Shown one piece after another: positions 31,018 to 52,928 of a stretch of DNA of 64,000 nucleotides. Numbering within the stretch: position 1 is the first letter of the stretch; every line of letters begins with the position of its first letter. A model generated the notes under the pieces. That model made no database searches. It saw only the letters and a list, made by a program, of their open reading frames with translations, and was not told the origin of the DNA. Origin of the DNA: Chitinophagales bacterium (lineage in GTDB: Bacteria > Bacteroidota > Bacteroidia > Chitinophagales > Chitinophagaceae); contig JAIXKI010000017.1 in NCBI GenBank assembly GCA_026936105.1, forward strand, positions 138,890 to 202,889, in the 5' to 3' direction. The translations under genes were made by a program, and so were the position numbers.

Positions 31018-31109
31018 AATGTTTGGTTTTTAAAATGATTAGCGTTTTTCAATATGAAATTCAAAAGTCAAAAGTTTGTATTTTGATACAATTTTTTTCC
31101 TCTCTGTTT

Positions 31110-50592: not shown

Positions 50593-50853
50593 TTATTCGC
50601 CGAGCTGCTTTGCGCCTTCTACAAGTACGGTAACCTTATTGCGCAGCACCTCAACAAAACCTCCCTGAATCTCAAACTGAGCGGTATTATTTTGTTTGTC
50701 TTTTAAAATTTTCAGGTTACCGGCTTTCAATGCACTTACCAATGGCGCATGTTTTTCCAGTACTTCAAAACTGCCGCTGATGCCCGGCATCTGAACGCCA
50801 TAGACATCGCCGCTGTATAATTTTTTTTCCGGGGTTAAAATTTCTAAGTTCAT
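50593..50853 (-). CDS. atpC: ATP synthase epsilon subunit, short form
   Basis: Rotor subunit that couples F1 to Fo and inhibits hydrolysis. 86 residues: only the N-terminal beta-sandwich (MNLEILTPEKKLYSGDVYGVQMPG to GGFVEVLRNKVTVLVEGA), without the C-terminal helical hairpin of the 130-residue E. coli protein. Short epsilon subunits are usual in Bacteroidota. Its start codon overlaps the left copy of a 15-bp inverted repeat, and an unrelated S23 gene separates it from atpD. Confidence 0.92.
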   Translation of the reverse strand: MNLEILTPEKKLYSGDVYGVQMPGISGSFEVLEKHAPLVSALKAGNLKILKDKQNNTAQFEIQGGFVEVLRNKVTVLVEGAKQLGE

Positions 50854-50866
50854 AGTATTGAGTATA
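50852..50866 (+). repeat. Left copy of 15-bp inverted repeat
   Basis: ATAGTATTGAGTATA; its exact reverse complement is at 51384-51398. It overlaps the first two bases of the atpC start codon (read on the minus strand). A related AGTATTAAG follows at once. Confidence 0.8.
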
Positions 50867-50884
50867 AAGTATTAAGCACTCATA

Positions 50885-51244
50885 TCATTCTTCGCCTTTC
50901 AAAGTATTATAAAAAGAAAGGATCATTTTATAAATCTGCAAGGCCTCATCAATCAAAGATTCATAAATCTCTTTTGTCAGATAGTTAACTCTAAAAGCAA
51001 ACTCAATCTGAGTTTGTGCTTCATTTATCGAACCCATTGAGATTTCAAGAAATCTTTTAAACTGTTTATTGGTACCTCTCCCTGCTCCTTCAGAAATATT
51101 ACTTGGTACAGAGACCGCACAACTCCGAAGTTGAGCAGTAAGTCCATATTTTTCTTCCTTTGGAAAATTTGCGCTTACTTCATAAATCTTAACCACATAA
51201 TCCATGGAACGCTGCCAGATCTTTAACTCCCTGTAATTATGCAT
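50885..51244 (-). CDS. Four-helix-bundle protein (S23 / 23S rRNA intervening-sequence type)
   Basis: A 119-residue all-helical protein of the S23 family. Family marks: MHNYRELKIWQRSMDYVVKIY, FPKEEKYGLTAQLRSCAVSVPSNISEGAGRG and ISMGSINEAQTQI. In other genomes these genes occur within 23S rRNA intervening sequences or scattered in Bacteroidota chromosomes; the function is uncertain. Start taken at the second methionine (MHNYREL), which matches the family's usual beginning. It is inserted between atpD and atpC in the same direction and flanked by a 15-bp inverted repeat and AT-rich direct repeats, suggesting it arrived as a mobile unit. Confidence 0.9.
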   Translation of the reverse strand: MHNYRELKIWQRSMDYVVKIYEVSANFPKEEKYGLTAQLRSCAVSVPSNISEGAGRGTNKQFKRFLEISMGSINEAQTQIEFAFRVNYLTKEIYESLIDEALQIYKMILSFYNTLKGEE

Positions 51245-51263
51245 GCCCATTGAGAGATATTTA

Positions 51264-51309
51264 GACCTTAAGATTCAGTATTGAGACCTTAAGTATTCAG
51301 TATTAAGAT
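51264..51309 (+). repeat. AT-rich direct repeats beside the S23 gene
   Basis: GACCTTAAG at 51264-51272 and again at 51285-51293, each followed by (T)ATTCAGTATT, a 21-base period. Part of the 172-base spacer between atpD and the S23 gene. Confidence 0.6.
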
Positions 51310-51383
51310 TGATAGTATTTAGATTAACCAAAGAACTGATTTTATCCTTTCAAAACCTGCTGCACAATACAGCAACGAATCTA

Positions 51384-51398
51384 TATACTCAATACTAT
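51384..51398 (-). repeat. Right copy of 15-bp inverted repeat
   Basis: TATACTCAATACTAT, the exact reverse complement of 50852-50866. It lies 18 bases from the atpD stop codon. Confidence 0.8.
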
Positions 51399-51416
51399 AA
51401 TCTCTTTTTCTCTCCC

Positions 51417-52928
<1,512 letters not shown>

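Follow-up and report, generated by a model that had tools for sequence, protein, structure and literature searches.

Short intergenic hairpins which exist in gene-less beside gene-bearing forms are familiar from the REPIN/RAYT systems and from miniature inverted-repeat transposable elements (MITEs); REP/RAYT systems have GC-rich palindromes at their flanks. The unit of the cyanobacterial short tandemly repeated repetitive (STRR) sequences is a heptanucleotide. STRR hairpins are found, e.g., between hupS and hupL (PMC2670836), and heptamer repeats of the TAACTGA type were described in Beggiatoaceae, cyanobacteria and some Bacteroidetes (PMC4679880). The intervening sequences (IVSs) of ribosomal RNA (rRNA) genes contain an S23p reading frame and terminal inverted repeats which form a long stem, and they are excised by RNase III. 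Such IVSs are known, e.g., from Coxiella and Leptospira; they have replaced tetraloops, their distribution is sporadic, and mobility or horizontal spread has been suspected (PMC4990558). For an S23 protein from Xanthomonas a homopentameric ring was reported (PMC4990558); the literature at hand calls the S23/IVP family functionally uncharacterised or without known function. We have analysed an S23 gene situated between two ATP synthase genes, atpD and atpC, of a Chitinophagales bacterium (GenBank assembly GCA_026936105.1, contig JAIXKI010000017.1, positions 138,890 to 202,889; this whole stretch of 64,000 nucleotides is called the window).

In our judgement the feature in the window is rather probably one copy of a compact mobile unit which is composed of a 7-nt array, an S23 gene and the same array inverted. 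On the - strand of the window the gene order is atpD, S23 open reading frame (ORF), atpC. The individual features are as follows.

50593 to 50853, - strand: atpC, the operon gene downstream, for the F1 epsilon subunit; the arm touches its start codon; ORF call
50852 to 50877, + strand: downstream arm of the unit, with the heptads AGTATTG AGTATAA AGTATTA at 50854-50874; from sequence, repeats and resampling
50885 to 51250, - strand: S23 / 23S rRNA intervening-sequence protein, a four-helix bundle of 121 aa; from PF05635, TIGR02436 and AlphaFold2
about 51258 to 51330, + strand: inner heptad set, GACCTTAAG repeats plus AGTATTGAG/AGTATTAAG units; from sequence, repeats and comparison with the congeners G001-G003
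51384 to 51398, - strand: outer upstream arm, where the 15-bp inverted repeat recurs (as ATAGTATTGAGTATA on the - strand); from repeats, resampling and predicted RNA fold
51417 to 52916, - strand: atpD (F1 beta subunit), upstream operon gene; ORF call

The two neighbours are presumably atpD and atpC; homologues of atpC are present in 93 of 98 genomes of the family. An earlier note on this DNA had claimed that an S23 gene fills the atpD-atpC spacer in the direction of its neighbours, that a perfect 15-bp inverted repeat lies at the unit ends and touches the atpC start, and that GACCTTAAG direct repeats sit inside. All of this is borne out. The ORF matches PF05635 with 132.3 bits (cut-off 33.8) and TIGR02436 with 125.8 bits (cut-off 24). 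The inverted repeat, ATAGTATTGAGTATA at 50852-50866 with its complement at 51384-51398, shares two bases with CAT (50851-50853), the codon at which atpC starts. In 20,000 resamples (first-order Markov, two non-coding pieces) an exactly matching inverted repeat of at least 15 never appeared. The direct repeats are located at 51264-51272 and 51285-51293. Further, the inverted repeat lengthens to 23 nt at 87% identity and is itself part of the 7-nt array. The inner heptad set is an extra copy, present in the genome of the window (G000) and in G002; in G001 and G003 the corresponding spacer lacks it. Apart from the S23 frame, no ORF of at least 60 aa lies wholly between the arms. In the transcript 50840-51420 a 17-bp long-range stem is predicted which joins both arms around the S23 frame (minimum free energy -142.2, z -2.87, 0/100 shuffles).

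S23 genes in many lineages tend to sit between locus-specific inverted heptad arrays. The arms were examined by the complementarity of the upstream to the downstream flank of a gene, own pairs being compared with mismatched pairs; Mann-Whitney and Fisher tests (own versus mismatched, S23-rich versus S23-free) were one-sided, the reverse transcriptase (RT) test two-sided. Sixty loci were chosen from the listed S23 matches of relatives and 50 from the listed matches of the phylum; short flanks led to the removal of 1/73 loci from the set of genus, family and order, of 4/80 from the named contigs and of 5/203 from the percentile count. When the S23 flanks of G000 are viewed in gene direction, most display by eye short arrays on both sides which are mutually complementary and unlike those of other copies. 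The own pairs of G000 alone score 17.8 versus 12.9 for mismatched pairs (12 usable of 13 loci, one-sided p = 3e-5). The set of genus, family and order gives 21.5 for own and 13.1 for mismatched pairs, with 14.9 in direct orientation (72 usable loci). Phylum-wide the values are 19.8 and 12.6 (50 loci, p 4e-21), on the named contigs 23.7 and 12.4 (76 usable loci, p 6e-38), and on plasmids, mainly cyanobacterial, 26.3 and 13.0 (12 loci of 39 records). Fourteen of the named contigs lie outside Bacteroidota proper; they include KSB1, Rhodothermia, Balneolaceae, Campylobacteraceae, Deltaproteobacteria, Planctomycetota, SAR324, Methanophagales, Acidobacteriales, Ignavibacteriae, Nomurabacteria, Lentisphaerota and Nitrospirae. 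Their median is 20.5, the mean of mismatched pairs 11.8 (p 4e-9), and 10/14 score at least 20; the one archaeal contig has an arm score of 18 versus a 95th percentile of 17, and the SAR324, Nomurabacteria and Lentisphaerota contigs remain below the 95th percentile. Control genes score 12.8 (51 window ORFs, the S23 ORF included) and 13.8 (54 other ORFs in S23 loci).

The anatomy of the arms was examined in the 102 of 201 loci with strong arms. The upstream arms are periodic, with autocorrelation z values of 25.7 at lag 7, 17.1 at lag 14 and 10.9 at lag 21; the best lag is 7 in 70/102 and 8 in 27/102 loci. On the sense strand the upstream arm is rich in G (27%) and poor in C (8.9%), and G exceeds C in 95/102 arms versus 78/99 for the coding sequence which precedes them. 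Between co-directional genes a unit mostly takes up the spacer from the stop of the first gene to the start of the second. Arms are both short and strong in 76 loci; here the stop codon upstream is inside the arm or at most 10 nt away in 59/71 resolved loci, and the downstream ATG is inside the arm or within 10 nt of it in 38/62, within 30 nt in 49/62. S23 is co-directional with both neighbours in 164/193 loci; for window ORFs the figure is 30/51. Further sites are, to judge from the sequences, presumably nuoF/nuoG (L009, L096; L numbers denote loci) and sdhA/sdhB (L010, L100). According to annotation, S23 units also lie within CRISPR-Cas operons of the cyanobacterial plasmids L304, L305 and L310, twice between cas6 and cas4 and once between cas10 and cmr3. 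As a separate observation, the Planctomycetota contig L189 carries exceptionally long inverted arrays of GGTGGAC-type heptads around its S23 gene (arm score 164).

A ATAGTATTGAG motif shared by all S23 genes is ruled out, as units differ between copies by reading; the expectation of the earlier note that other S23 genes would carry ATAGTATTGAG failed for the other twelve S23 matches in G000. Units go with S23 subfamilies, and a refutation test based on a shared repeat, as the note had proposed, would therefore misfire. The sequence comparisons (unit-protein test, 108 of 203 loci) indicate that units resemble each other where the S23 proteins do so in sequence, also in different phyla and at sites unrelated to each other. 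At different sites, i.e., with non-homologous flanks, arm similarity is 11-12 for pairs below 55% S23 identity, 15.0 at 55-65% (175 pairs) and 22.3 at 65-80% (20 pairs). The Mantel r between arm and S23 similarity at different sites is 0.21, a value reached by 0/2000 permutations, and the 64 different-site pairs with at least 60% S23 identity score 18.0 versus an expected 11.9. By reading, S23 genes from a KSB1 genome, from a Nitrospirae genome and from two genomes within the phylum of the window have a AGGCACAAAGGCAC-type unit in common. At shared sites both arms covary: over all 368 pairs, unfiltered, own arm pairing beats cross-species pairing in 116/123 pairs below 50% S23 identity, in 146/165 at 50-65% and in 43/54 at 65-80%. 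In the subset filtered on arm score (143/368 pairs) own arms are better in 33/33, 57/60 and 32/36 for these three classes and in 5/14 above 80%. Shared-site pairs of low identity may be independent insertions into hot spots rather than one diverged copy.

The AlphaFold2 model of the window protein has a predicted local distance difference test score of 95.2 and resembles the solved S23 protein 2GSC (TMq 0.87-0.91) and 2RLD, the BT_0352 protein of Bacteroides thetaiotaomicron (0.77-0.81); each of these two PDB entries contains five chains. More distant than 2GSC is Avd (4DWL, TMq up to 0.77), a protein of diversity-generating retroelements (DGRs). PF05635 has 13 matches in G000, 11 of them above the family cut-off, and in a sample of 296 genomes from the phylum of the window 232 possess S23/IVP, the highest count being 15 copies in one genome. 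Selection was judged from codon-position counts only, as the ratio of nonsynonymous to synonymous substitution rates was unstable (zero or saturated synonymous rates in several pairs). Differences at first, second and third codon positions number 11, 0 and 36 for L001/L017; for L001/L020 they are 7, 2 and 12. In the L001/L017 pair purifying selection acts on the S23 frame, and because of these counts it is considered to be in use as a protein. PADLOC returned no defence match for any of three proteins.

Related genomes contain empty sites, S23-less hairpins and decayed copies. An atpC match was obtained in 93 genomes; 70 of them make up the atpD-atpC set, to which G001 and G003 were added via their S23 loci. 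S23 has a sporadic distribution among these relatives, like that of rRNA IVSs: it is present in 8/72 spacers (6/70 without G001 and G003) and absent from 64, of which 22 measure at most 40 bp. The S23 frames at this site are free of in-frame stops in G000-G003, G095 and G029; G053 and G061 have several stops and another unit. These two decayed copies (L261 and L277, respectively) display long, neat TAGTAGT arrays in spite of their stops. At the L004 site G000 has S23, and G001, G002 and G003 have spacers of about 80 bp without S23 and with a small hairpin; at this site (L280-L285) the G002 hairpin seems by reading to differ from that of G001 by a compensatory change from T-A to C-G. The L003 site corresponds to a plain 70-bp spacer in G003 and to an unrelated 257-bp spacer in G002, G001 not being resolved, and for the L008 site the comparison with relatives gave no clean result. 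The copies L088 and L091 of genome G007 lie at unrelated sites. They measure 455 and 452 nt, 364/452 aligned bases are identical, and the homology extends from the first heptad to the last, to within a few A. This pair is the clearest sign of transposition. The interpretation of the earlier note is partly supported. Its small mobile cassette which spares the operon is supported: the unit does lie between operon genes, and the S23-less spacers, the L003 and L004 sites and the G007 pair suggest that it has moved. Another two S23 units, L084 and L086, lie about 1.3 kb apart on contig C7 of G002 with homologous flanks, perhaps as a tandem duplication.

Significant hairpins were detected in 19/64 S23-less atpD-atpC spacers. 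Ordered by the S23 count of the genome, they amount to 1/15 (no S23), 3/17 (1-3), 9/21 (4-7) and 6/11 (at least 8). S23-free versus S23-bearing genomes thus give 1/15 versus 18/49 (one-sided Fisher p 0.022), and over the 64 spacers S23 count and hairpin z are correlated (Spearman 0.45, p 2e-4), the kinship of genomes not being controlled. Of the 19 hairpin spacers, 16 have their best lag at 7 or 8 and 14 a G-rich first arm; two (L247, L258), which were kept in the counts, contain no heptads and are GC-rich palindromes. G035, a genome without S23, has a visible TTTGAAAA-type array in its spacer which stays below the threshold of the hairpin test. Random samples in two batches of 20 x 20 kb yielded 14 hairpins per 400 kb in S23-rich versus 1 per 400 kb in S23-free genomes (batch 1 p 0.017, batch 2 alone 0.25, combined per genome 0.06). 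The S23-less forms may well depend on S23-bearing genomes. Within the window, at 31018-31109, a short array of GAAATTCAAAAGTCAAAAGTTT occupies a spacer without S23; the strict hairpin scan missed it.

Several observations weigh against a widespread mobile unit with cognate arms. With 160-nt flanks, 121/198 loci exceed the 95th and 72/198 the 99th percentile of mismatched pairs, hence a sizeable share of S23 genes has weak arms or none, and in G000 only 1/12 loci is above the 95th percentile. The window arm pair scores 18, which equals the 95th percentile, and taken singly the arms of its genome are weak. In-frame stops occur in 3/13 S23 matches of G000. Above 80% S23 identity own arms are better in 9/26 shared-site pairs, cross arms in 9, with 8 ties; since own arms do not beat cross arms in this class, arm covariation is visible only after long divergence, and above 80% identity the arms have hardly diverged. 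The atpD-atpC copies of G000-G003 and G095 have the same kind of unit and S23 proteins 86-98% identical to that of the window, and by these identities they look vertically kept. Only one clear within-genome copy pair was found and other different-site pairs are at most 77% identical, so S23 units move rarely or did so long ago. The ends of the G007 pair, a single pair without a matching empty site, display no evident target-site duplication. Finally, 9 of the 14 random-sample hairpins of S23-rich genomes come from G080 alone.

It has to be considered whether S23 is an autoregulator for which the heptad arrays serve as RNA or DNA binding sites controlling its own operon slot, the units being inherited mostly with the operon. 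That the unit follows the S23 subfamily would fit, as would the placement of the arms, which in most resolved loci are located at the stop of the gene upstream and the start of the gene downstream, the purifying selection in the counted pair, and the same kind of unit with the same S23 kept at atpD-atpC in G000, G001, G002, G003 and G095. Such a regulator leaves the empty sites, the arm-to-arm homology in G007, the S23-less arrays and the rRNA-gene anatomy unexplained, and we consider it rather unlikely. The reverse order of events, in which the host makes the hairpin arrays by slippage and template switching between arms and S23 is a guest in hairpin loops like an IVS in rRNA tetraloops, draws on that tetraloop precedent (PMC4990558), on the small S23-less hairpins of G001, G002 and G003 at the L004 site where G000 has S23, and on the 19/64 hairpin spacers with their two GC-rich non-heptad palindromes. 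Against it, S23-less hairpins are scarcer where S23 is absent, the unit follows the S23 subfamily across sites, and in G007 gene and arms moved as one; we regard arrays of host origin as distinctly unlikely.

A mover acting in trans, which the earlier note had considered possible, was also looked for in 59 genomes of genus and family, and no such mover was identified. A resident Y1/HUH transposase of the RAYT type or an RT might mobilise the hairpin unit, with S23 as accessory as Avd is to the DGR RT, a role to which the similarity of the S23 and Avd folds would be congenial. S23 and Y1 (PF01797) counts do correlate (rho 0.55, p 7e-6), and S23 tracks neither genome size (rho -0.15) nor DDE transposases (DDE_Tnp_1, rho -0.11), which disposes of general transposase load. 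But G000 has 0 PF01797 matches despite 13 S23 matches, G061 has 10 S23 genes and no Y1, and 20 Y1 loci (L355-L374) possess by reading GC-rich palindromes at many flanks instead of AT-rich heptads; in spite of the correlation Y1 transposase was rejected as the mover. Likewise, RT is dismissed as a necessary partner: its rho with S23 count is 0.08, genomes with and without RT number 16/19 at S23 counts of at least 4, 4/7 at 1-3 and 5/8 without S23, i.e., 19/35 S23-rich genomes have no RT, and PF00078 has no match in the congeners G001, G002 and G003 (G000 was not searched for RT). Mobilisation by such a resident enzyme appears to us very unlikely. That the arms are a product of chance or of low-complexity AT-rich spacer sequence unconnected with S23 is hardly credible: the spacers are AT-rich and single loci, that of the window included, score near the edge of significance, but mismatched pairs, control genes, heptad periodicity, strand asymmetry and the correlation of unit and protein contradict it.

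We return to the mobile unit of array, S23 gene and inverted array. In the operon transcript the arms are predicted to pair into a long-range stem with the S23 frame in its loop. By analogy to the rRNA IVS, RNase III would trim this stem (PMC4990558), and the atpD and atpC messages would be left intact on either side of the cut. The insert could be tolerated in operons because of this trimming, and units might settle between genes or in dispensable rRNA loops because the cut stem spares the flanking messages. The unit itself would be read by run-through from the host operon. An S23 homopentamer may bind cognate heptads on RNA or single-stranded DNA and take part in moving or protecting the unit; the agreement of units and proteins suggests that S23 probably recognises its own heptads. 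A bolder proposal goes beyond this. S23 units might constitute a distinct class of mobile elements in bacteria and at least some archaea, in which a pentameric RNA- or DNA-binding ring reads its own tandem heptad, perhaps one per subunit, and the arms act both as the RNA stem hiding the insert and as addresses for movement; rRNA IVSs, STRR sequences and spacer hairpins would be members or relics. We put this forward tentatively, as a possibility with more doubt than confidence attached. If the pattern holds, rRNA IVSs, the heptad hairpins of operon spacers and orphan four-helix-bundle genes are one system, the function of S23 becomes directly testable via its cognate repeat, and operon spacers carry removable units which may cleave or insulate the polycistronic messages of core genes such as atpD-atpC.

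How does the unit compare with known systems? It shares with REPIN/RAYT and MITEs, as these are generally known, the short intergenic hairpin and the side-by-side of gene-less and gene-bearing forms. It differs from REPIN/RAYT in that G000 lacks Y1 and Y1 genes elsewhere have GC-rich palindromes at many of their flanks, and from a classical insertion sequence in that no transposase gene is present inside the window unit. Avd of DGRs (PMC10053308) has a similar fold (4DWL, TMq 0.77), but the window S23 reaches only 28.9 bits versus a cut-off of 80 for DivGenRetAVD and 26.6 versus 40 for the Pfam family bAvd. The TAACTGA repeats resemble the arms as intergenic 7-nt arrays which often end at a start codon and are patchy across phyla; they differ in being described as direct, and 'S23' and 'four helix' are absent from the main text of PMC4679880. 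STRR sequences are likewise short tandem repeats which form hairpins in operon spacers, like the S23-less units here, and the window spacer has this trait in its tandem heptads and the predicted hairpin with the other arm; the accessible part of PMC2670836 does not link them to S23. A link between S23 genes and heptad arrays was found in none of the open-licence PMC titles and abstract beginnings, subscription literature being mostly outside this scope.

The agreement with the rRNA IVS goes further, and the statement of the earlier note that no mobility is described for S23 units holds only in part, as rRNA IVSs have long been suspected to be mobile (PMC4990558). In both, an S23 frame lies within terminal inverted repeats which make a stem, in the window a 15-bp repeat and a predicted 17-bp stem. 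The differences are that the window copy, like every other S23 locus with neighbours inspected by eye, lies between protein genes, here atpD and atpC, and not inside an rRNA gene, and that heptad arms and the link of unit and subfamily are not mentioned in the accessible part of PMC4990558. A plasmid of Azospirillum lipoferum 4B (L313) connects the two: its S23 frame is located inside a 23S rRNA gene (Rfam match L313:286-3354), i.e., it is such an IVS insert, and its arms are heptads of GGANGAC type; the S23 stretch, 1501-1854, holds one stop codon. It is the one rRNA case examined, rRNA having been searched in L313 and L314 only. Already known, then, is the rRNA IVS with S23 and terminal repeats; not found in print are the heptad architecture and the matching of protein and repeat. 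The meaning of the observation is wider than the earlier note supposed: the window contains a typical copy of an IVS-type mobile unit which occurs in many bacterial phyla and, with measurable arms, on one archaeal contig.

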